Source: Tetracentron sinense
Taxonomy: Eukaryota > Streptophyta > Magnoliopsida > Trochodendrales > Trochodendraceae
Length of the DNA stretch: 64,000 nt
Direction: 5' to 3'
Assembly (NCBI GenBank): GCA_015143295.1
Contig: CM026557.1
Span: 22,725,760 to 22,789,759 of the forward strand
Shown here: positions 6,343 to 46,715 of the stretch, one piece after another
Layout of the letters: each line of letters begins with the position of its first letter
Numbering within the stretch: position 1 is the stretch's first letter
Position numbers and translations under genes: made by a program
Notes under the pieces: model-generated
What the model saw: the letters and a program-made list of their open reading frames with translations, nothing else
The model's database searches: none
What the model was told of the DNA's origin: nothing

Positions 6343-9300
6343 AGCGCTCCGGAGGCGCTCTCGACCCAAACCTAAATTGAAATTTGATGCTCCCGCGCTC
6401 TCGCTTCCGCTCTGGTTACTTAGGGTACGACACCTCCCTCTCCCCCCTCTCTTCTTTCTCCCTTATTCAACGTCACATTTGATTGTCGGTCTATTTTTCT
6501 ACTTTTTATTCAGTCTTATATTCTTCCTCATCTCCTCTCCTCTCTCTCTCTATCTCTCTCTTTCCTGTTGGCCTGTCTATTTTTTTATCCCTCACAATTC
6601 CTCTCTCCCCTCTTTCAACAATCATTGTAGACATAATTTTTACTCCAATTTTTTCCAACACTTAAAATCCCCTTTTATTATTCTTAGAACTATCTCTAAC
6701 AATGATTCTATCAAAGTGCATCTTGTCAATGGTGTAATTTATGTGAATGTATGGTCTCTTATAAAAGAAAATGCATCATACATAGATCTCATATTAGGGG
6801 AAATTTCTGCAAACAAAAAGTTCATCAGGTGACACCTCGGGCACCTCAGGCGTCCATGGGATTTGTCGCCTGGTCACCTTGACAACTATGGGTCCCCATA
6901 AAAAGACTAAACTACCCTTTACTTTAGTGATATTGATAATTGATACAAGGGTAAAAAAAGTATGGTGAAGGTAACCAAGTTACATTTAATGAATGGTCCC
7001 TTGTAAAAAGACTAAACTACCCTTTACTTTAGTGATATTGATAATTAATACAAGGGTAAAAAAGTACGGTGAAGGTTACCAAGTTCACCAACTGAGTGAA
7101 CGTTAACAAGTATATATATATATATATATATATATATTACAAGTTTACAACATTAAAGTAATTCTATAAGTGTGTCCGTGTGACAGTTTCTTTGCATATC
7201 AAGACCGGCGTTGTGCCAGTGTCTAACACAACACTCGTCTTCATGTCTAGGCTATCTAGCTAACTATGAATATACACTTCCACTATTTGTTTCCAATTAT
7301 CAACAAGGACATTACATTTTCTATTGTTATTAACATCCAGGCCTTGTTGCCATCGTTGAATTCAAGCTAATTCATGTTCTAGGGAGGCTAACCAACCAGC
7401 TGACATTTTGTAATCAAGATGTAGATATTTACTATACCCTAGTGTTCTCCTAATGACTTGCCTAGGCTGTTGGATAACAATGCTTATTCTTTTTCTTTAC
7501 ACCGTATCCAACTATTTGGGGTTGGTAACCGGAATCCTATTCTACTATTCTAGTGTACCAAGAACTAGTGGGTCTCAACAGACCCAGGGGGGCAGTGACT
7601 AGCCCCAATTAATAAACATGGCGGTCCAGGCCAGCCAGTTTATTAATTGGTCTTGGCCAGACTCAGGCCAAGCCTGCCTAAGGAGTCAAGAGAGAAAAAG
7701 GCTTGTTTTGGGGGTTTTAAATTGGCCTTGTTGAACCGGGCCAAGCACGCTTAGAAGAATACTATAACGGGCCTTGGGCCTACGACTCCAAGCCCAAGCC
7801 TGCCAATTATTTAGTCGGACCGGGGCCCGTAGCCCGTTGACACCCCTACTAAGAGCCATATCTTCTGTTGGATCATGAATCATGATGTTATGGGATCTAA
7901 ATATCATATGTGATATTCCAACCCTTTTTTGGCAAGGTCAAAGAGGCATCTGCCAAACCAGCCATATGCTCATCCACGAAAAAGAACATGCCATATTATG
8001 AAACTTGAAAGAGTTATCACATTTTGCACTCATGTGTCAGACACATGCCAACACTCTTTTTCAGATGATCATATAATTTATCATGTCTCTAGCTTTCAAC
8101 TGTTATCTATATTTCATTTGTAAGATTGTCATATATATTAGCTTGTTTAAGTACATTATTTTGATATTGTGCCTGATACTTCCTATCCACATCTGACGAG
8201 GACAAACAAAACGTCTCCATGTCAAAACTACATAATTTTTCCAAACTCTAATTATCTTTCAGTGATGTATATAAAATAGCTATTTTCTTTCCAAGAAGTA
8301 GAATATGTCCAAAATCTCAAAAGAAAAGAAAAGTAAGGATCTGTAATGTGCTATCATCGGCCAAGCAATGGTTATCAAGATTCAGGACAGGTAACAGTAA
8401 ACAGAAACACATTTTGCGAGAACCAATTGATTAGCAGCTGATGAACACTTAAACCAGAATGCATTAAAGATATATTTACACATTTGACAGCAGTTAGGTG
8501 CCTAATCCGAAAGCAGTGAAAGGACCATATGGCATTCTTTGGTCAAAATATAAGAAAAGGTATCCCAAAGAAACTAGAACTCTTGGTACACCTAAGGAAG
8601 CAGGTGATACAATTCGAAGAAGCAATTAAATAATATGTAGATAGATTGTTCCAACTTCCAAACCCAACCAAACCATAATCATTCAGAAGGCAAAAACCAC
8701 TCCCCACTTCCATGGACGGTGTACCATCTACATCAAGCACGATCATGTATTTAAACTTTTACATATTTCCATTGACATAGGCCAAAATGTGTCAGATTCA
8801 CCAGCCCAACAAGAAATCACCATGTGGTTTTTGTGATGAAAAATTGGAAATATTGGAGAAAACCCAGCATCATAGTCAATGCCTTATCCCAAATATTTGC
8901 GGCTGGCAACACAAATCTCAATTCTCCTTTATTTTGATCCTTAATAGTGTTGAATGATATATATAAATTGTTAAGTTTCCCTGATCTACAACTTGATTGG
9001 TTAAGAATATTTAATTATACATTAAAAAATTAAAATTTAATCTATAATAACAGTTAATGATCTCCATGTTTATATTTGAAGTTGTTTAAATGTTATTAAG
9101 GTTGGCCCTACTACAACTTGGTTAAGTAAGTCCTATTCGAAAAATTAAGTTATTGTTAATCAAATACTTTTTTCAAAATAAAATCATTAGTATAAGGGGA
9201 ATATCTCCTAAAACGACTAAAGAAATTCCATTTGAGAGTCACCTATTGGCCCATGTGGACTCCATATTAATTTTGCAAAATCAACATTGGTTAATATTCG

Positions 9301-27979: not shown

Positions 27980-30280
27980 AACCCCCACTTGATTTTATTT
28001 TTAAAATATATATGGACATTCAAGAATATCATGTGCATACATGAAGGTGTCTTTGGACTTGAACCTCCACTTAGTGCAAACAAACCAAAGATAGCCAAAG
28101 AACACAATGGATAGAACCTTGAACTATGAACCCGAACTGACTAAACGGATATGTCGCACACGCATTCCTTTTAGAGGTTATTTGTACCAAACAACTCAGC
28201 ATTTTTACGTCCATGCTTCAATCCCAATTTATTAAGAGCTCTAGAGATAGGCTTCAACTCATAAGAAGTGACGAACTTCTTACTCTCAGAAAGGTGAGTC
28301 TATCAAGAATGCTCTTGTTACACTCCCACCATTTAAGGCATATAACACTCATTAAGAGAATTCTTAATAATTCTCAACTTATAACCACAAGATCATCTGT
28401 AGGTTGGCAGCCTACAAGATATGCACTATCTATCACGTACAAGGAAGGGACACATCTCAAAAGAGATTGATAGAAAGAAATACTTTCTTTAGTGATAGTG
28501 CTCAATAGTTATTACATATGGGCTTGTTTGTCCCATTGAACCTGAGAGACTTATCAGGTTGGGTTTCCATCTCATATAACTATTTTACAGGCTTTAGTCC
28601 CATTCCCTCCAAAGTTTTTATCACAAAGTCTGTGCCAAGGCCCTTGGATAAAGGATCTACCAAATTTTCTTTGGACTTAACATACTGAACAACTATCTTG
28701 CCATCAGTTATAAGACCCCTCACATGATTGTGGTTCTCGTTGCATGCCTTGAGCATTGCAGCCTGGTTGTCACAATAAATTGTGATAGCTGATACAGGTG
28801 TACCCCATATTGGTACATCTACCAATACACTTTTAAGCCATTCTACCCTTTCACCTGCAGATGACAAGGCGATGACTCAGATTCCATAGTTGAATGAGTA
28901 ATGCATGTCTGCTTCTTGGATTTCCATGATATGGCTCCTCCACCCAAAGTAAATCTCTAGGCCGTTACAGATGTGGACTCATCTGAACATGAGTTCCAAG
29001 TTGCATCACTGTAACCCTCAAGTACAACTGGAATTCTCCCAAAATGTATCTCATAAGTCAAAGTACCCTTGAGGTATCTCAGTACTCTGATAAGCGTTAT
29101 CCAATGTGTCTCCCTTGGATTACTAGTGTGTTTGCACAATATGCCCACTGCTTGGGCAATGTCCGGTCCTGTGCAGTGCATGACATACATGAGACTGCCA
29201 ATAATTTGAGAGTATTCAAATTGAGATGCACTTCTGCCTTCATTCTTACTTAACTTAATATAGGAATCAACTGGAGTGGGGCAGGGGAGCAATCGAACTG
29301 ATGATTAAATCTTCTGAGGAATTTCTCTATGTAATTTGATTGAGATAGAGCAATTCCTTGGTTACTTCTAATGATCTTAATTCCCAGAATTACATCAGCT
29401 TCGCCCAAATTCTTCATGTCAAAATTCGACGATAGAAACCTTTTAGTGTTCATAACATTTTCCAAATATGTTCCAAAAATTAGCATATCGTCAACATATA
29501 GACAAATGATAACTCCAGAATTTTCTCTGAATTTGTTGTATACACAAATATCACCACTATTTATTTGATAGCCATTAGAGAGGAGAATCCTCCTAAATTT
29601 GTCGTGCCACTGTCTGGGTGCTTATTTAAGACCGTAAAGTGACTTTAACAACTTACATACTTTCTTATGATTCTTTGGCATGACAAAACCTTCTAGTTGA
29701 TCCATAAATATCTCTTCTTCAAGATCACCGTTGAGAAAAGCGGTCATGACATCCATCTGGTGGATGATAAAGTCATTGATCGCAGCCAGAGCTATCAACA
29801 ATCGAATAGTGGTCAACCTTGCTACTGGGGCATATGTGTCGAAATAATCGAAAATCGTTCTTTGTCTAAACCCCTTAGCAACAAGCCTCGCATTGAACTT
29901 ATCAACTATACCATCAGGTTTTAACTTTTTCTTAAAGATCCACTTACATCCAATAGTCCTGCTTCCAGGAGGAAGATCCACTAAAGTCCAAGTGTTGTTG
30001 GACAATATGGAATGCATTTCATCATCTATTGCTTTCCAAGTGTAGCATCGTTTGATGTCATAGCTCCAGCATAGCTGACAAGTTCTTCCTCCACATTGTA
30101 AGTGATGAAATCAAGATCAAAATCTTTAGAAACCTTAGTTCTAGAACTTCTACGAGGATTTAGCAGAACAGAAGTTTCAGGCTCTTCTCTTAGCACTGGT
30201 CTCCAAATGCACCCCCACTTTGAGTGCGGATTTCTATGACACTCACGAGGAAGGATTGGTGTATGTACCTGTACCCTCAC
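27980..30280 (-). mobile_element. Ty1/copia remnant: RT and RNase H
   Basis: Minus-strand pol remnant. 29622-30017 encodes the RT start (WTLVDLPPGSRTIGCKWIFKKK, LVAKGF, YAPVARLTTIRLLIALAA, QMDVMTAFLNGDLEEEI) up to SLYGLK, followed by TAA where family members have Gln. 29487-29498 encodes the catalytic YVDD. 28957-29486 carries LGIKI, PDIAQAVGIL and the RNase H segment GYSDATWNS. 28580-28867 carries IYCDNQAAM and the RNase H C-terminus. The part 30026-30276 (RRSSRTKV, DFITYNVEE) is upstream linker. Integrase, gag and the 5' LTR are absent, cut off near 30280 by the next LTR. It is inactive through stops and truncation. Confidence 0.88.
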
Positions 30281-31241: not shown

Positions 31242-31726
31242 TAATATCGGTAATGGGATTACCGACATTAAAACAGAAGTTTTAATCGTGGTTTTGCACA
31301 CAGTTAACTAGGGTTAGGGGTTAACCTTGGGTGATCTGAAACCATGGGTGTGAAGAGAGGACTCAGTGAAGATTTTGGGCCTGGTGTAGACCCTAGGGGA
31401 TGCCTGGAGTGGGCGCCACAAAGGTCCAAAGCTACTGTACCTGTAAGCACATATTGGCAGTAGATGTTCTACCGCCAATCTCAAAATAGGCAAAAACAAG
31501 ATTGGCGGTAGAAGATCTACCGCCAACCTGCACAAGGTCTACTTTTTTGAATAATAACCATGGTTAATGCCATGGGGCCACCCTGGAAGGACCAGGGTGA
31601 GTCAAGGGAGATGAGAGGGGTTCAACCTGGGCCCTAGACATGGACCAGGGCCCACCTAAATAGGCCAAAACAAGTTGTAACAGTAAAGGCCAGGAATGGC
31701 GGTAATGAGTTTACCACCATTCCTGG
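31242..31726. repeat. Palindromes downstream of the TATA box (30-33 kb LTR)
   Basis: Four long inverted repeats. 31242-31270 has TAATATCGGTAAT with ATTACCGACATTA. 31453-31479 has ATTGGCAGTAGA with TCTACCGCCAAT. 31502-31526 has TTGGCGGTAGA with TCTACCGCCAA. 31690-31726 has CCAGGAATGGCGGTAA with TTACCACCATTCCTGG. Spacers are 3-5 bp. Confidence 0.9.
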
Positions 31727-32370
31727 TTTTTCTTAAAAACTGAATTTTGCCCATTGGGGTTGTGCACAGGGGATACCAGGGGTTCCCTCATGACCTGAGG
31801 GACCCCCAGTGGGTCTGTGGTGGTCTGATGAGCTTAGGAGAGTGGTCTATACCCGTAGGGGTGTCTCTTACCTATGAACAAGGTAAGGGACAACCCTGTG
31901 TGAGGTTTGACCCAAAAGCAAACAATAGCAGTAAGCAAAAATATGTCCCCTAGAGGTGACTAGGGGCTCACAGGCAATGCTCAAATTAAAAAAAAGGAGG
32001 GTAGGGGAGGCCCTACCCTGGTACTCTATTTTCTTTGCTACAAAATGGAGGTTTGTGCATAGGTGGTGCGCCCTAGTGATGCTACACGAACAAGGGGGTC
32101 TCAGAGGACTCCTAGGATCCTAGGGATGCTTACAGAAGCTTCAAGAGGGGTTTTAGGCTCTGGTTTTTTGGACAAGGTTTCACCTGGGTGTATTCGGATG
32201 CTGGTTACGGTTGTGGGAGTTGGGTTTTATAGAGGAAGCTCTAGGGGACCTAAGAGGGATTAGAGAGAAGGGGGAGATGGTGGTTGGACCCTCTGGAGGT
32301 CGAGTGAGGGTTGTGAAGTGAAGGTGGAGTGTACAAGAGGTGTACGCAGACTATAAACTCGAATATCACA

Positions 32371-32483
32371 CAATGGCGGTAGATGGTCTACCGCCATTGT
32401 CAAAATGGGCATGAAATATAATGATCTACCGCCATGACAAAAATAGGCTAAAAACTAATTGGCGGTAGATCATCTACCGCCAA
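32371..32483. repeat. Palindromes upstream of the TATA box (30-33 kb LTR)
   Basis: 32371-32399 has CAATGGCGGTAGA with TCTACCGCCATTG, perfect 13-bp arms. 32423-32438 is a half-site GATCTACCGCCATGAC. 32459-32483 has TTGGCGGTAGAT with ATCTACCGCCAA. They lie about 140-250 bp upstream of the minus-strand TATA box. Confidence 0.9.
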
Positions 32484-33515: not shown

Positions 33516-34210
33516 TGTTACGACCCCAAAATCCTACTAAGGCTAAAATAGGACTTTGGAATCGCCACATTACTTAAACCTGCTTACAAACCATGCATAC
33601 AAGGCTACTACACGAGTCTCCCAAAAATTAGAGTAATAAAATTCCGATATATAAACCCAATCCAGCCTGCACAAGTCTAAGGTCTATATATACAACTCAC
33701 GATGAACCAACAAGTCTGATACACAACTAATAAGAAGTCTACTGAGCAACATCCTCTAAAAGTCAATTACAAAACTCTCTCAAATGAAAAGAAATGTAAA
33801 CTAAGAGATGTAGCCGCCCAAGTCTCCGGCTCCCTCCTCAGAAGGCTCACCTTCACCTCCTTCCTCAATGTATGTTTCCTCAACCCACGGCTCCACCGTG
33901 TACTCCTACTCTATACCTGCCAAGACAAAAGTCCGGCTGAGTACAAAGGTACTCAGTGTATATAAAATCCAATCAACAATAATAATGTACCTGCACTTAG
34001 TCAGAAACATATCCAATAGCATAATAACATAATCAGAGTGCGGAAGAACGTGTGCGCATATACATCATATCATCACCTTGACTCGTGTACTTGTGAGAAT
34101 CTTAGACTTGGAAGACAATACACTTATGAGTTGCTTATGCTTATGAGACCACGTGCTTGTGAGATGCTTACGCTTATGCTTATGCACTTATTCAGATCAT
34201 ACAAGAATGA

Positions 34211-34355
34211 GACATGCCGTTCTTGGCGGATACGGACCATGCGTTATGCACTTATTCAGATCACAGAGTAATGAGACATGCCGTTCTTAGCGGATACGGA
34301 CCATGCCTTAGAAATCATATGGTTGACATGCCGTTCTTGGCGGATACGGACCATG
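34211..34355. repeat. Three copies of a 30-bp hairpin-prone repeat
   Basis: GACATGCCGTTCTTGGCGGA then TACGGACCATG starts at 34211, 34275 and 34325. CATG-CCGT can pair with ACGG-(AC)-CATG with a small bulge. It lies in the presumed transcribed half of the LTR. Confidence 0.9.
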
Positions 34356-35267
34356 TCATGCTTATGCTTATGCTTATGCAGAATGTCATACGTATGTCAT
34401 GCTCATGCTTGTGGGCCACGTGTGACTTGTGAGACTCTTATCTTAACATACACGTGCCTATGTGCTTAAGTGTCGAAATTAACATTCGAGTTGGTAATTG
34501 CTTAGATTTCGATCTCCCACCATAGAAACTCCACTATACTGTCCCATACCAAATAGTTAGAGAATTCCCGGTTTGAGAGATGTTCCTCTAAGTTCTTACC
34601 TTCCCGACTATCAATTTCCATGCAAATAATTAGACATACTTAACAAACCATTCACATATACATATCTTATCATAATCCATATTGCAATTCATAATCAATT
34701 TACCACCATTTCATAAGAGTATAATAGCATTTATCCTTTTAAGCATTTTCACAAACACCTTGTGTACGCATAATATGAATCCATTTCTCCTCTATATTTT
34801 TAAGCATTCATCAAACCATATTTCATCCATACAATCAATTCACTATTCACATCCACATATTAATCCCATCTTCCATACATTTCCCATCCTCCATATATTT
34901 CCCATCCACATCCAATCCACATTTTCATCCACATTTCCATCAATAATTAGCTTACTTCATAGAAAATTAGGGAAAATGCATCAAACATCTATTTCTACCA
35001 TTCCTAGCATCTTCACATTCACAAAACCTTAAAATAAAGTTGATTAGGATAGTATATCGACCTTAGGAATCTTTCCCTTGGATTCAAAATGCTCCCGAGG
35101 AGATTTGGAGAAGCTTTGAGGACGATCTCCAAGCTTTCCTCTCAATCTTCTAGCAACCTCCTTCTTCTCCAAGAAAACCCTCTCTCAAAACCCTAGGGTT
35201 TCTCCCCCTTTTTGCCAAATTAGGTTAGAACTAGGTGGAGTATTTTAATATTTCGAGTAGGACCCCC

Positions 35268-35277: not shown

Positions 35278-35339
35278 TCCAAGGTCTGAGAACGAAAAGA
35301 CCAAAAAGCCCATACTAAAATTCTGCAAAAACACGAAGG

Positions 35340-35525
35340 ACCGAGCGATCGGTGGTAATGACCGAGCGATCGGTTGCCTACCGATCGATCGGTGTTTATG
35401 ACCGGGCGATCGGTCAAAAACACACTCTCTGGAAAATTTCCCCATACAAAATTTTGGACCAGTCGATAGATACCGATCGATCGGTTTTGGACCGATCGAT
35501 CGCTGCTTCTGACCGAGCGATCGAT
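35340..35525. repeat. Array of ACCGATCGATCGGT palindromes
   Basis: 14-bp units start at 35340, 35361, 35380, 35401, then 35458 (degenerate), 35472, 35491, 35512. The best units are perfect palindromes and others read ACCGAGCGATCGGT. Spacing within blocks is 19-21 bp. The array ends 62 bp upstream (minus sense) of the TATA box. Confidence 0.95.
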
Positions 35526-36015
35526 GCTCTATTTCGACTCATTTTACTGTTTTGGCCATAACTTTTTACTCGTTCATCGGATTTTGACGATTCAACTTGC
35601 GTTGGATTCGTCTCTCGAAAACGAACATTTCTGGCGTTTAGAATTTCTAATTTCCACTAAATTAATAAACTAAAATATCCCCAAAGTTGACTGATCTGTA
35701 ATTCCATTAGACAAAACTCACTATTGACTTGACTTAAACTCAAAATGAGGAAAAACACTAACCATGAACCTCGAAGAGGGTTCCAACACCTTTCTAATGG
35801 TTCAAGAATCACACAATTCCAGTAAACGGTGCTAAAACTAGAGCTTCCTAAAGTTTAGGATGTGCTATGACATCCATCCATTACAAGTTGATTTAGCCTA
35901 GTTTACATCACCATAATTAGATATAAATACTCACACTTTAACACCTTATAAAGACTAAAATACCCTTAATGCAATGCACTAAAAACATGAAAAAGATTCG
36001 GGTCTCTACACCTAA

Positions 36016-39900: not shown

Positions 39901-40913
39901 ACATATGTGGACAATAGTATCAATTTGTGTCGACATGTATCAACTTGGTGTATCGACCGGTATCAAAATGGTGTAATATCAACCAATATTGATCTTGCGT
40001 GCAAAAACTCTATTAAAATTTCAAAATTGTACGAATTTTTCAGATTTTTCTAGAACACTCATTTTAAATGTATTCTTAAACAACAATTATCAATTATTCT
40101 ATATTGTTAAAATGTATAAGAATAACGTAGGTGCAAAAAATTCAAACAAACGTACTATTTTTAATGTTAGGATAATAATTTATGAGCAATAAAAAATTTT
40201 CTTTTCACACATAAAAAAGAAGAAAGTGAGGAGTTTCGCGAGAGGGGAAGATGGGGGAGTGAGGAGCTTCTCCCCCTAATGCACGTACGTAAATCTTTTT
40301 AAAAATTATTCCAAGTGTTAGTAGTAGTGGAAAGCTATTTAAGACTTTTAATAAATGTTGAATTATGAAAAATGCTCGTAAGCCTCTTAAGGAAGATATT
40401 TTAAAACTCGGGGGGGATCAGGAAAAATGAATTACTTATTATATAACCCGAGCAGGTCAGTGGACACATGGCGGTTCTAAAAAGTTTTGAGGACATGTGA
40501 AAGTTGTTGAGTAGTTTTTTGTTAATGTGCCACATATTCATGCCATGTATTCGAAGTAATGGTTGTTATGCAGTAACGGGATGTAGAGGGGTGCACGAAC
40601 GGGATGTGGAGAGGGTGCAAGAATGGTTTTCTCCTTCAATAGATATCTCTTAAAATGGATGTTTTAATGGACACAAAGACTTTAAAACTCTCCTTCTATT
40701 CCTCTCTTTAAAACACTCCCTCTAAAAGATTATTTGAAATCTCTTTTAAAACACTCTCTTAAATGTTTCCTCTCTCGATCTCAATTGTTTTCACTCTTAT
40801 GAGGAAAGAAAAGAAAAGAAAAGAAAACGTTTTCACATTTAAACATTTTCATATGTTACAATATTCTCAACTTCCTAACATGTCTACTATATGACTGTTT
40901 AAGAGGGGCGTTA
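39901..40913. other. AT-rich intergenic DNA
   Basis: No gene or element ends recognised. Confidence 0.5.
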
Positions 40914-41332
40914 TGTAGCGCACCAGAACTTTTGTCCATATATAGAAACTTGTGCTAATGCTTTGAGCCTTTGTAATCTTCAATTTTCTGTGAAATAAGA
41001 ATTTGGAAGGTTTGGGTAGTCTTAATTAAGTATTAAGGAATGTTGATAGGAGTTAAAATGGAAGTGAAAAGTGCTCTAAGTGTTAAAAAGGTGGGATTCC
41101 TAAGTCGGATATGTTGAAAACCCGGACTGCTGAAACCCGATTTCAGACCAGTCAACTTTAGGGGTATTTTAGTCCATGAATAAAGTAAAATTCTAAAATT
41201 CTAAAATATCAGAATTGTTCTCCTTCGAATGACGAGTCCAACGCAAGTTGAATCGTCAAAATCTGACTAACGAGTCAAAAGTTATGGCCGAAATACCAAT
41301 GGGAGAAATATCTGAAAAATTATTGTCTAAAT

Positions 41333-41519
41333 TACGAACGATCGTACAGACCCTACGAACGATCGTAGGTGAGCTACGATCAATTGTAGAAAATCTACGA
41401 TTGATCGTAGGATTTCGACAATGACCAAACTCTCAGCAACGTTTACGATCGATCGTAGAAACTTACAACCGATTGTAGAGATGTTACGATCGATCGTAGA
41501 AAACTTACGATCGATTGTA
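41333..41519. repeat. Array of TACGATCGATCGTA palindromes
   Basis: Two blocks of four 14-bp units: 41333, 41354, 41375, 41396 and 41444, 41464, 41485, 41506. Steps are 21, 21, 21 and 20, 21, 21 bp with 48 bp between blocks. Two units (41444, 41485) are perfect. The others differ by changes such as CG to CA or TG. Confidence 0.97.
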
Positions 41520-41573
41520 GTCGCGCGACCCATAATTTTTATACAGGATTTTTTAGGGTTTCTACCATCTTGC

Positions 41574-41583
41574 CTATAAATAG
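41574..41583 (+). promoter_or_regulatory. TATA box of the split LTR
   Basis: CTATAAATAG followed by GGG, 54 bp downstream of the palindrome array. Confidence 0.7.
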
Positions 41584-41712
41584 GGGATTCCTTTGGGGGG
41601 TTTTTGGCTTACCCTAAACCTAGAGAGACTAAGAGAAATTGAGAGGAAGAAAAGGATGAGAGATTTGGGGATTTCAAAGAGTGTTGGGATTGAAGAAGGA
41701 GGAGATCAAGAT

Positions 41713-44472
41713 TGTCATGCCTCAAAATACCCCCTAGAAGTTTTGGGAACTTTGGATTATGACTTGACCTGACTTGTTAAACCATCCTGTAATTAACAAA
41801 GCATGCTACAATGGAAATATACCTAATTGAAATATTCCAAGACATACTAAAGTTATATACATGCACCTAAAGTAAATAATAAACATACTTGCTCAGTTTC
41901 CCCTGATTTCCAGAGCCTACGCACAAAGGCAGGCATCCAACTCTCTCGCCTCCACCTGAGATTCTATACACTGCTCTTCTTCGCCGTAATCTTTCTCAAC
42001 CCATGACCTAGAACCGCAATTATCAAAGTCAATACCTACCGACATAAAATGTACGGCTGAGTATGGAATATTCCGCGAGTACAAATCAATAGCTAACATT
42101 GGATAATAAACATGACATAGCTTACATGGAAAGTAAAACAATATAGTCATGATGCATGCATGGACTTAATACTTAAACATTTCTTTTCATGCCATTATAA
42201 AACATACTTGTCGATGCATAACTCATGGTTCTTGTCAGGGTACATGTTTGTAAAATCCTGCAGTATTGATCTTGTTCTTGTCTTGCGTGAATCATGATAT
42301 TATACTTGTTTTCACTGGTTTGTTCTTGTTCTTTCTTGAACTCTCTTCGATACATGCTTGTGAGCCGGGAGTTAGAGCCTTGACTTGGTAACGGCCATGC
42401 TTGACCGTTATAGGATAATATATATATAATGTCAAGGTCTCCAACTTCGTTGAACCAGCCCTTGTGTCTGGCATTATCATTGTTTTTAATCCTTGAAAGC
42501 CTACTAAACTAGATTTAGACATGATCCTTGGAGCCTAAAACAAAGATCTTAGACTTGTCATGCATAAATCATTTTCGTTTCTTTTCAAATTCACGCTAAC
42601 ACTTGTATAAATCTGTCTTCTTAAAACTGACATTGAAATCATGACATGCATGCATGAGCAATCATGAAATCTAAACAATAGAGCATACTTAATTATCATG
42701 CTTCAATACCAAGTAATAATAGTCATGAAATTAGAATCTCATTACATATTTCCATCTACAAAGTATGCTAGTAAAGTGTAGTTACAATTATATCTACAAA
42801 GTTAGTTAGTAGAATGTACTTACCTGATTATTTAGTACTTTGGAAACACCTCTATAGCGAGATCTGAATTTCGGGAGCAAGAAGGAACTCCTTCTCAGTC
42901 GATAAACACCAACCCAAGCCTTAGTCAACACCCTCTTGTTTCTCCATACTTTTTCCTTTAAAAATAACAAATGACCATCTTTAGAAATTCCTTTTCCAAA
43001 TTGTTTATTTAATTTCTTTTATACTCTAGGGTCCTTTATGTAGCTTATGCTCTTAATTTATGATTTGCCAAGTGTGGATCCACATTTAGCATATTATGTG
43101 ATTCCTGGCAGATAGACCCTCTAAAATATTGCTAACATTGATAAGACCTAGTTTCCTGAAAACGAGACTCACTATGCTTAAATTTCATAATACATAAGAT
43201 TACTAAATCATTTGGGAAGTCGACAAAATAAAGCAGGGGACAGAGAACTGGTTACATATGCATAACTCCTTGGTCTGATCCTTCATTTGGATTCCTACAG
43301 CTGGTTCGAAATGAACAGATTTACAGAAACTGGATGTGTATGCTAAAACACATGAGATTAAGATATAATCCAAGATTTACTTCCAAAATACACCTAAATC
43401 ATGAAGATCGGGAAACTTTCCCATCCTACTCAAGTTGAACTCATCCCTCACATATCAATTTCATACTTCAAGATATACGAAACGTCCAATAATCATGGTT
43501 CAATTCAAGATGACTTAATCTTAACTCTATCTTGAACCAAAATAAGAGAAGATGAGAGATTTATACCCTCTAGATGAAAATATGTCTCTGAGGTTGAGAA
43601 TGACGCCGAAAACGGATTCAGAGAGCAGAATTAGCTAGGGTAGTGAGCCTTCTTCTCAATAAGACCTTCTCTTTCTTTTTCTTTCTCTTTCTTCCCTTTT
43701 CCTTCTCTATTTCCTTTTCTTTCCCTTTTCTTCCTTTCCCTTTTCCCTTTCTTCTCCTCTTCTCTTCTCTACGTAAGCTTGCTGCTACGGTTATTGTTAC
43801 TGTGCTTCTAACTTGCTGCTACTGTTACTGTGCTGTACAACAGTAACTCTAATGTTCATATTATCCCCAACGTATAGCAGAGCTGACTTTAAAGCTGAGT
43901 CAATTTGGTGGTTTCACCTCCACCCAACACATGCCTTTACACATATCTTATTTATACTATAAACTTAATACTATATTATACTTAAGTCCGTAAATCTCAA
44001 TTAGTTATTATTAGCTTCTTTAAACATGAATTAGTTCATTAGTTACTTACTACTTGTAATTAAGAATACAAAGTAACCTTATTAGACTTCTTTAACTTAC
44101 CTTAGTGACAATTTAACCCTCCCTCTTAACATTTATTATACTTAAACCCTTAATCTCAAAATAAAGTATAATTAACATCTTAATCACTAATTAATCAATT
44201 AATTACTCACTAATCATAATTAGTAATAAAAAATAATATATATTTTTTATCTCTCCAAACCCTTCTTTACAATAGACGGGTCATTTCTATTAATGTTAGA
44301 TTTTAAAAATTCTGCCCCGATTGGTCGAGATTATGATCTGAAGTCTAATTTCTTAGGATCTCTTAGGGTCGCCCCTTCTATGTCTATATGAGAGATAATA
44401 TTAACTCATATATTTACTACCTTTAGGTACTAATAACACATTCTCTTGGCAAGGAGAAGTTGGGTCCCTACA
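41713..44472 (-). mobile_element. Nested solo LTR, 2,760 bp
   Basis: Starts TGTCATGCCTCAAAATACCC, ends GGGTCCCTACA, with perfect AAGAT duplications (41708-41712, 44473-44477). The plus-strand start matches the inverted end of the host LTR, so it lies in the opposite direction. The sense-strand TATA candidate TATAAATA is near 43948. A hairpin TAACGG...CCGTTA is at about 42393-42414. It inserted into the leader just after the TATA box of the host LTR. Confidence 0.9.
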
Positions 44473-45202
44473 AAGATCAAGGTTGGTCTTCCCCAAATCA
44501 AGCAAAGATCACATCCCTTCTTAAGTGGTTGCCTTCTTCGTCAAGCTAAGGATTCCAAACATAGGGTTTTCTCCAATCAAGGAGTAATCCTCAAGGTTAG
44601 CACACCCTACTAACTACTTTAATAATAACCTAGGTTTATTTAAAAGCATGATTGTGGATTGATTGAGTTAATTTCTTTTCTTGAATTGCTTTATTAAACC
44701 CCTCAATTAAACAAAATAAAGAAGAAATTTGGTATGTGTGAATGCATGGTTGAGGCGATGGATGTCGTATGGTGTGGGGAATGTTTTGTGATGAAAAATA
44801 GAAGATGCGCATTGTACACATAATAAACACATGTGTATTGTTGATGCAATACATGAACTAAGAACACAAATAAATTGTTAAAAATAAGATGTATACCAAG
44901 TGTTTAATAAAATGTATAAATGAGAATTAAAGGAGTTAAATAAAGACTATTCAACCATGATTCATATAGTTTTCCCAATTAGTGAATTTGATCAAATGCT
45001 CTATGTGTTTTCATTTCATTACATCCCTCATGACTATGAAAATACAAGAAATGCTATATTTCACTTTTTTATCCCATGTCAACATGATATCACCAAGGGT
45101 CACACACAAGTACACATGTATGCATGAATCAAGTTTTTATGTATAAGTATATGAAAAGAAAAACCAATAACAAGAAATGTGAATTGTGAAACAATGATGA
45201 AT

Positions 45203-45373
45203 GTCAAGGGTAGGGCATATCCCTAGGATATATCATACCTGACTCATAAGTAAATAAGAATGAATGTCAAGGGTAGAGCATATCACTAGGATATGTTATA
45301 CTTGGCTCACAAGCAAACATGCATGAATGTTAAGGGTAGGGCATATCCCTAGGATATCATACCTGACGCACAA
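45203..45373. repeat. Three tandem 63-bp hairpin-prone repeats
   Basis: GTCAAGGGTAGGGCATATCC and what follows starts at 45203, 45266 and 45329. Each contains ATATCC-CTA-GGATAT or a paired variant (CATATC-ACTAG-GATATG). Confidence 0.9.
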
Positions 45374-45409
45374 GACAACATGACAGGCAAGAATCAAGAA
45401 ACATGGAAG

Positions 45410-45709
45410 GATGTTAGTGTACTAAGACCAGGTACGAGAACTAACATCTATTCTTCAACAAGTATGAGATGATGCTAGTATAATAAGACCAGGTACGGGT
45501 ACTAGCATCTGTCTCCAAGTAAAATGACAAGCATAAAATTGTGTTAATGTACTAAGACCAGGTACAAGCATTAACATCTGTTTCAAACAAGTATGAGAGG
45601 ATACTAGTATACTAAGGCCAGATACGGGTACTAGTATCTGTCTCAAAGCAAAAATAAAGAAATATGGAATGATGATAATGTACTTAGATCAGGTACGAGC
45701 ATTATCATC
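45410..45709. repeat. Five tandem hairpins with covarying stems
   Basis: 39-bp units at 45410, 45471, about 45540, 45600 and 45671. The loop is near TACTAAGACCAGGTACGRG in all. Stems are GATGTTAGT/ACTAACATC, GATGCTAGTA/TACTAGCATC, TGTTAATG/CATTAACA, GATACTAGTA/TACTAGTATC and GATGATAATG/CATTATCATC. Confidence 0.97.
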
Positions 45710-46430
45710 TGTTTCTAATTTAAGCAAGTAATAAGCAGACATGCATGATTCTTACAAGACAAGAATAATCTCATAAGATGTGCAAGGTAATCACAAGATA
45801 CTCAAGACGCATAAGGAACTCACAAGATAATTGAAACAAGATTAGTTAAAGCATGAACATAAGACATGATTTACTACATGATATTTAAGAGTTTACATTC
45901 GTTGTTACTTGTACTTGCTTCCGTACTCTGATTTTAGAAATGTGATGATGAACTGTATTATGTATGTTATGTTATCGTTATTACTATTGTTAGCTAGTAG
46001 CTTGTACTCGCTGAGTATTCCATACTCAACCGTACTTTTATGTCGGCAAGTACACTATGCGATATATAGACTTTGGTCCCTTTGATCGAGGTAGCTCAGG
46101 GAGAGCATGAGGTTATTCGGATGGTTAACCAAATGTTAGGGGTTGGCCTGTGGCCATAGGGTTGAAATGAGAGAGAAACATGTATTTTGGGATTTTCTTT
46201 TGAGGATTTTTCATGTGAGCTTGAGTGGGTAACTCAAGCAATTGTATCCCTTGTGATCATTGTATTTTATTCAGTCGTTGTTTATGTTGACTCTTGAAAT
46301 TATATTTATTTTAAAGAAATTTTCCAGATCACTATTTGACATGTTTTGTATATTCTTTGCAGGGTTGATTTAAGGTCAAGTCACATCGCCAAAGTATCGT
46401 AGCTCCTAGGGGGTATTTTGGGGTGCGACA

Positions 46431-46715
46431 CATTAGGAGTGATTATGTACATTAAAGTTATGATCGGTTATAATCTTAATTGGTTTAAGGAATGTGTTTT
46501 ACATATTGGTAGGGGAGGGGTGAAGTTAAATTGAAGAGCATATGCAATAGATACATGCATACAACACGTTTGTTCAAAATTTTGACATGTATCCATCTCT
46601 CTCTAGCAGCACTCCATTTGTATTTGTTTCTCATGCATGCTATGTAAGTTCTAATAACAACCCCTTCATTCGTAAGCATTGATCATTCACAAGAACAGTG
46701 ATTGAATCATACATT
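46431..46715. other. Spacer between the split LTR and the hAT element
   Basis: Nothing recognised. It includes CATACATT (46708-46715), the left target duplication of the hAT element. Confidence 0.6.

Follow-up and report, generated by a model that had tools for sequence, protein, structure and literature searches.

Retroviral packaging signals (Psi) are structured leader RNAs, often found downstream of the splice donor, in which case only unspliced RNA carries the whole of the signal. Among LTR retrotransposons, the 5' leader of Ty1 RNA has two kissing hairpins with complementary loops in a pseudoknot, a structure that has been tested experimentally, in which pairing was shown by compensatory mutations and which serves both dimerization and packaging, according to the available text of PMC5454406. 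In plants, conserved RNA structure within LTRs is described for the retrozymes, which carry hammerhead ribozymes (available parts of PMC4918200). Plant LTR elements are generally without introns, Ogre and EVADE being named as exceptions in the available text of PMC12786077, and the splicing described for BARE1, EVADE and Ogre divides element RNAs into pools and makes subgenomic RNA such as Gag mRNA (available parts of PMC3735527 and PMC12786077).

Here we follow up an earlier note on a stretch of 64,000 nucleotides (the window, C7:22725760-22789759) from the genome of Tetracentron sinense, in which five tandem hairpins lie within an LTR. We propose that the array folds in sense-strand RNA, as part of the LTR leader of a family of plant retrotransposons. 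Like the Ty1 structure of PMC5454406 it would consist of leader hairpins of an LTR retrotransposon, but it usually has five to seven hairpins that share one loop, which shows no unusual self-pairing, and the evidence for it comes from natural variation. Its likeness to Psi is that of structured leader RNA, any packaging role being suggested here by analogy. With the retrozymes it shares a conserved RNA structure in a plant LTR, whereas the window copy holds no ribozyme family in Rfam (positions 40900-46500). As in BARE1, EVADE and Ogre, splicing may divide the RNAs of the element into pools, but here the putative intron would lie wholly within the LTR and contain the hairpins. A literature search covering part of the literature found no covarying hairpin array of such a kind in a plant LTR.

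The hairpin array and the LTR that carries it

The features of the LTR copy in the window are as follows.

40914..46430, + strand: array-bearing LTR copy, TGTAGCGCACC...GGGGTGCGACA, its ends set by comparison with the C1 LTR pair L021/L022
41333..41520, + strand: U3 array of short palindromes in tandem repeats, CGATCG core, upstream of the TATA box
41574..41583, + strand: TATA-box-like CTATAAATAG, the counterpart of TTTATAAGCC in L022
41718..44400 (right end approximate, about 44.4 kb), - strand: nested related LTR in reverse orientation
45189..45383, + strand: 3-copy, 63-bp tandem array upstream of the hairpin array, each unit hairpin-forming in fold prediction
45405..45455, + strand: hairpin 1 (type s1), stem region 45410-45448 plus outer stem
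45466..45516, + strand: hairpin 2 (type s2), stem 45471-45509 plus outer stem
45535..45585, + strand: hairpin 3 (type s5), stem 45540-45578 plus outer stem
45595..45645, + strand: hairpin 4 (type s6), stem 45600-45638 plus outer stem
45666..45716, + strand: hairpin 5 (type s7), stem 45671-45709 plus outer stem

The LTR at 40914..46430 is probably a solo LTR; it is flanked by CGTTA and CATTA (four of five letters alike) and is broken by the nested reverse LTR, around which no target duplication was found. The two LTRs against which its ends were set are 99.3% identical over 2,430 bp, carry the 5-bp target duplication CGCAT on both outer sides and both start with TGTAGC (L022 ends with GTGACA, and in L021 an insertion cuts the LTR short of its end); the short target duplication and the TG...CA ends mark them as the paired LTRs of a retrotransposon. 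In L022, ACCGATCGATCGGT-type palindrome units stand upstream of the TATA-like box TTTATAAGCC. The hairpin array in the window (45410-45709) lies downstream of the TATA-like box at 41574..41583, as the earlier note had placed it, and about 0.7 kb short of the LTR end. In a related LTR on the - strand (35339-35528), short palindromes with the same CGATCG core likewise stand upstream of a TATA-like box, and the outer letters of the arrays at 41333-41520 and 35339-35528 differ in matched pairs (TACGA..TCGTA versus ACCGA..TCGGT).

Because the DNA following the LTR ends differs from copy to copy (LTR ends compared by eye; two probable segmental copies excepted), the compared copies look like solo or 3' LTRs. 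At most 2.2 kb inside the 3' LTR of the C1 element, and on the same strand, there is a Ty3-type gag piece and a zinc-knuckle piece, two ORF pieces in L148 that were searched separately (profile matches Retrotrans_gag 2.2e-17, Ty3_capsid 6.4e-12, zf-CCHC 2.9e-5); Ty3-type gag is thus present in one element, and its pieces may stem from a nested insertion. No pol (RT, RNase H, integrase) was found in 5.0 + 2.1 kb of the interval of about 14 kb between LTR parts, where there were only a reverse Copia-type gag-pol ORF and gag pieces.

The array consists of five units of 39 nt each, with start-to-start spacings of 61, 69, 60 and 71 nt. The earlier note had described five tandem units pairing over 8-10 bp, and the perfect stems of units 1-5 measure 9, 10, 8, 10 and 10 bp. 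Its reading of the varying positions is also correct for the fourth pair (G-C four times, A-T once), the fifth (T-A, C-G, T-A, C-G, A-T) and the eighth (G-C, G-C, A-T, G-C, A-T); the tenth pair, given as A-T or G-C, is so in four units, while unit 1 has G/A. Unit 3 has the two remaining exceptions, T/C at its first pair and G.T at its second. Each stem has an additional outer stem of 4 bp, absent from the earlier note (GGAA/TTCT, GAGA/TCTC, AAAA/TTTC, GAGA/TCTC and GGAA/TTTC in units 1-5), which varies pairwise too; its irregularities are a single G.U in unit 1, another in unit 5 and an A/C in unit 3.

When the 14 pairs of the five window units are aligned on the loop, 67 of 70 cells are paired and two-sided changes occur at six pairs; with the partner column shifted by 1-3, pairing is only 33-54%. 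None of 500 shuffles of these units was as high in percentage paired, in two-sided cells or in covariation score, but 26 of them had as many two-sided pairs and 346 as many pair types. The stretch 45380-45720 folds better than every one of 100 shuffles, with z -4.0 as RNA and -4.2 as DNA. That the arms fold as DNA as well speaks for selection at the level of DNA, either on a cruciform or hairpin or on inverted sites bound by a protein, as does the palindrome array that the same LTR has in U3 upstream of its TATA box, with paired differences between families in its outer letters; the strand on which changes are tolerated bears on this alternative and is taken up below.

Seven unit types across the family

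The loop pattern has 1,408 + 1,445 = 2,853 exact matches in the 1.16-Gb assembly, against 2 + 1 = 3 for the reversed control, and one loop pattern has no exact match in a viral collection; the array belongs to a dispersed LTR family of the T. sinense genome. Units were sought by the loop alone, with up to 5 mismatches and not by pairing, which gave 820 units in 137 loci (window included). A first look gave 1,710 candidate copies in all, and the loci are a non-random sample made up of the first-listed C1/C2 places, the window's nearest relatives and the places of one loop variant. Not counted were L001-L008, which repeat places already covered by L009-L011; L055, which coincides with L046; L029, which is the window once more; and L079, an interior piece. 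The pairs L016/L017 and L043/L049, probably segmental copies, count as two rows each. By arm similarity, 764 of the 820 units were assigned to seven types; the 56 with more than 8 of 32 arm letters off any type were dropped, which may favour well-paired units.

The types are ordered along the array (judged by eye, as were the linkers between hairpins), and every type has its own stem and outer stem, with a majority 19-nt loop that is identical in all seven. The five units of the window are the fixed types s1, s2, s5, s6 and s7, so that the differences between them are old and few; because the stems mark fixed unit types they are not five independent replicates, and on this point the earlier note overstated its case. 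Taken across types, the majority pairs are standard in 98 of 98 cases (94 Watson-Crick, 4 G.U), against a mean of 86.6 when arms are reassigned among types, where 98 was never reached in 5,000 tries. In the same arrays, an arm forms a Watson-Crick pair with its own partner at 6,982 of 8,200 positions; with the partner of another type it does so at 28,085 of 42,600.

The number of units per array ranges from 2 to 13 (5 to 7 in 106 of the 137 loci), tandem repeats are common in the window, and within types the stems have decayed about as much as the loops (about 5% versus about 6% of letters), all of which would suit an ordinary tandem repeat without function, a palindromic unit amplified by unequal exchange. 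Drift, however, predicts neither a loop that is constant between types while stems change only as pairs nor the lean to pairing among the inherited changes described in the next section, and we regard such a repeat as an improbable explanation of the array.

Changes within types also keep pairing on occasion. A two-sided change from the type majority is found in 53 of 764 units (51 with one such pair, 2 with two), and on the tree described below two-sided events number 21 on terminal and 4 on internal branches; two-sided, pair-keeping changes of this kind are what a covariation-supported RNA structure calls for. The new pair equals another type's majority pair in 31 of the 53 units, which exchange between units may explain, and four within-type changes present in at least three copies are not another type's majority pair. 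Position 2 of s5 shows three states, A-T, G.T and G-C, in 41, 82 and 12 of 141 units, and T-A has changed to C-G at position 3 of s6 (6 of 129), at position 6 of s2 (5 of 114, two of the five C-G loci being only 6 kb apart) and at position 6 of s6 (3 of 129, alongside six C.A units).

Two-sided changes might also come from template switching in DNA replication, the neutral route offered by the earlier note and described for RNA genes in the available text of PMC8794818, in which one arm is copied onto the other and stems are perfect without selection. Single-pair changes are compatible with it. Multiple simultaneous repairs, however, which are the enriched pattern in the available text of PMC8794818, are nearly absent among the 53 units; in changes from G.U to Watson-Crick pairs the 5' base is not favoured (kept versus not, 7:5 internal and 9:24 terminal), although keeping it is the direction given there for intrastrand switching; and the 31 units that match another type may owe their pairs to inter-unit exchange. 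The excess of G.U states reported below is likewise not predicted by it. The two-sided changes thus argue against template switching as the main cause, and we consider it very improbable in that role.

G.U and A.C states on the sense strand

G.U pairs in RNA, and its opposite-strand counterpart, A.C, does not. Because a G.T on one strand is an A.C on the other, causes acting at the level of DNA should give the two states equally. Among pair states present in more than 10% of a type (137 loci) there are 13 G.T, 1 A.C and 0 other, against 59 G.T, 53 A.C and 136 other among those at 5% or less (Fisher test on G.T:A.C, p = 0.0037); states at 5-10% (8 G.T, 14 A.C, 1 other) resemble the loops in that band. 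The loops, taken as a control, give 34:32, 8:13 and 13:12 in the bands up to 5%, 5-10% and above 10%, and stem and loop differ above 10% (p = 0.013). The frequency contrast exists only above 10% and depends on the 10% cut, which, together with the 5% cut, was chosen after a first look at 77 loci using 5% and 15%; in that first look the states above 15% were 8 G.T and 2 A.C, beside four majority G.T states.

Comparison of LTR pairs yielded too few stem changes to test, since only L021/L022 is a good pair and L046/L086 is old and no more than probable, and a tree was used for this reason. It was built from flanks only (134 of the 137 loci, 451 columns, midpoint-rooted, 76 of 130 nodes above 0.8 support), and one unit per type and locus was counted. 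Among changes from Watson-Crick pairs, the terminal ones, together with any kept in a single copy, comprise 228 G.U, 178 A.C and 138 other, and those kept by at least two copies comprise 39 G.U, 13 A.C and 10 other; the loops give 247:267 terminal and 18:29 internal. In Fisher tests that treat events as independent, which is optimistic given the shared ancestry of unit types and recombination, and that depend on the midpoint rooting, internal and terminal changes differ in G.U:A.C (p = 0.011) and in kept versus lost pairing (p = 0.0018), and stem and loop differ on internal (p = 0.00026) and terminal (p = 0.017) branches. The earlier note had looked to other copies of the family for its check. 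Taken literally, its refuting condition, pairing broken as often as kept, holds for the terminal changes (178 A.C and 138 other against 228 G.U); the changes kept by at least two copies lean to pairing. We read the recent pair-breaking changes as decay after insertion. Terminal stem changes lean to G.U as well (228:178), perhaps through unresolved inheritance.

The G.U bias stems from A-T pairs (G.U:A.C of 24:3 internal versus 71:39 terminal) and from the inner stem (33:8 versus 166:108), not from G-C pairs, where there is little shift (15:10 versus 157:139), or from the outer stem, where there is none (6:5 versus 62:70); since it shows no shift, the outer stem rests on between-type covariation and not on G.U bias. 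By the number of copies that keep a change, the ratio is 15:4 for at least three, 9:3 for four and 8:0 for at least five, and the distinct slot-columns with inherited changes number only 20 versus 13. Strand-specific tolerance of G.U is thus found in inherited changes at A-T pairs and in the inner stem, and is absent in the 5-10% states.

The excess of G.U over A.C on the + strand favours sense RNA over cruciform DNA. Selection on DNA would be strand-symmetric, yet the inherited changes and the states above 10% favour G.T on the + strand, and seven distinct stem sequences argue against one sequence-specific DNA-binding protein. Of the two objects of selection that the earlier note had named together, folded RNA in the sense orientation is supported by the inherited changes (39 G.U against 13 A.C and 10 other), and cruciform DNA is disfavoured; we give selection on DNA structure or inverted DNA sites very little credence indeed. 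From the covariation and the strand bias together, it seems probable that selection acted on the element's own RNA during its active period. Comparing G.U with A.C on the coding strand, and inherited with terminal branches, with the loops as control, may be useful elsewhere, and the same approach can separate selection on RNA from DNA-level causes using dead copies alone.

A putative LTR intron and possible roles of the array

Two further features of the LTR suggest splice sites on either side of the array, the splice consensus being general knowledge.

44592..44603, + strand: 5' splice-site-like CAAG/GTTAGCAC, putative intron start 44596; fuzzy match in 48 of 49 loci
46356..46367, + strand: 3' splice-site-like TTTGCAG/GGTTG, putative intron end 46362; fuzzy match in 40 of 49 loci

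Both were sought in 49 long loci by fuzzy searches allowing up to 8 edits, in which at least the matches at the 5' site of L036 and at the 3' sites of L014, L021, L022, L042 and L057 are plainly spurious. The putative intron would measure 1.77 kb and hold the hairpin array. The block TCAAG/GTTAGTACAC..CTACTAAC is present in 48 of the 49 long loci (window included), adjoining highly variable upstream sequence, and in 29 ungapped 5' rows of the AAG/GTTAGTA block the G and the T are each found in 28. The nested related LTR has CAG/GTAAGTACATTC and TTACAG/GATGG, in diverged letters, at apparently corresponding places. A genome-wide search with one exact pattern gave 0 joined-exon copies, whereas the unspliced 3' site had 74 exact matches; such a result is expected if there is no splicing, and equally if spliced RNA is not reverse-transcribed. 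The general lack of introns in plant LTR elements (PMC12786077) speaks against an intron here. On balance, we lean slightly towards the array being located in a removable LTR intron.

A constant loop, stems that are paired yet changeable, and repetition would together suggest that something reads the loop in the context of a stem, and an array inside a spliced-out segment would mark unspliced genomic RNA. Selection on the RNA combined with a role on unspliced RNA, whichever the partner, is a serious possibility, if not one that we would count on. Gag with its zinc knuckle would be the natural candidate partner, and we put forward tentatively that the array may be a multi-copy Gag site that marks unspliced genomic RNA for packaging. 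The main rival for partner is an export or splicing factor, the hairpins then acting in nuclear export or splicing of unspliced RNA and not in packaging. This branch of the same explanation shares its evidence for the rest; an intron-retaining RNA would need unspliced export, if the putative intron is real, and an adaptor protein could bind repeated identical loops, but plants are reported to use the TREX complex and not TAP/NXF1 for mRNA export (available text of PMC12786077), and we judge such a role distinctly unlikely.

A packaging or export role would, in its fullest form, make the array a plant counterpart of the retroviral packaging/export signal, that is, a modular signal of usually five to seven hairpins with one majority loop, placed in the LTR's own intron and kept by selection via G.U intermediates; this reading is rather unlikely as a whole. 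If it were true, only unspliced genomic RNA would bear the signal, and the signal could be read from many dead copies. In this family there is a discrete candidate for a signal by which the genomic RNA of a plant element could be recognized.

Two other candidates were rejected. Kissing-loop dimerization is not indicated by the loop self-duplex, at -7.6 kcal/mol against a shuffle mean of -9.4, with 1,328 of 2,000 shuffles as low. As for a known RNA family, no Rfam match reaches the gathering score in 40900-46500, and the two matches with E up to 1 are both far below it.

Further structures were noted elsewhere in the window and in the family. Another related LTR on the - strand (34176-34355) holds roughly three units in tandem, with CCGT/ACGG stems and CTAAGA or CCAAGA in the loop, and the stretch 34170-34370 on that strand folds no better than shuffles (z +0.74). 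Between the splice-like sites of the nested related LTR (42350-42500, - strand) there is a single long hairpin (-40.8 kcal/mol, z -3.1) that does not evidently resemble the hairpin array in sequence. Several perfect inverted repeats of TTGGCGGTAGA type lie at 31467-31526 and 32370-32483. Finally, L046 and L086, about 15.6 kb apart on C9, have nine and eight detected units in a common unusual order, with a loop variant in the first unit, and are probably an old LTR pair, about 10% diverged.
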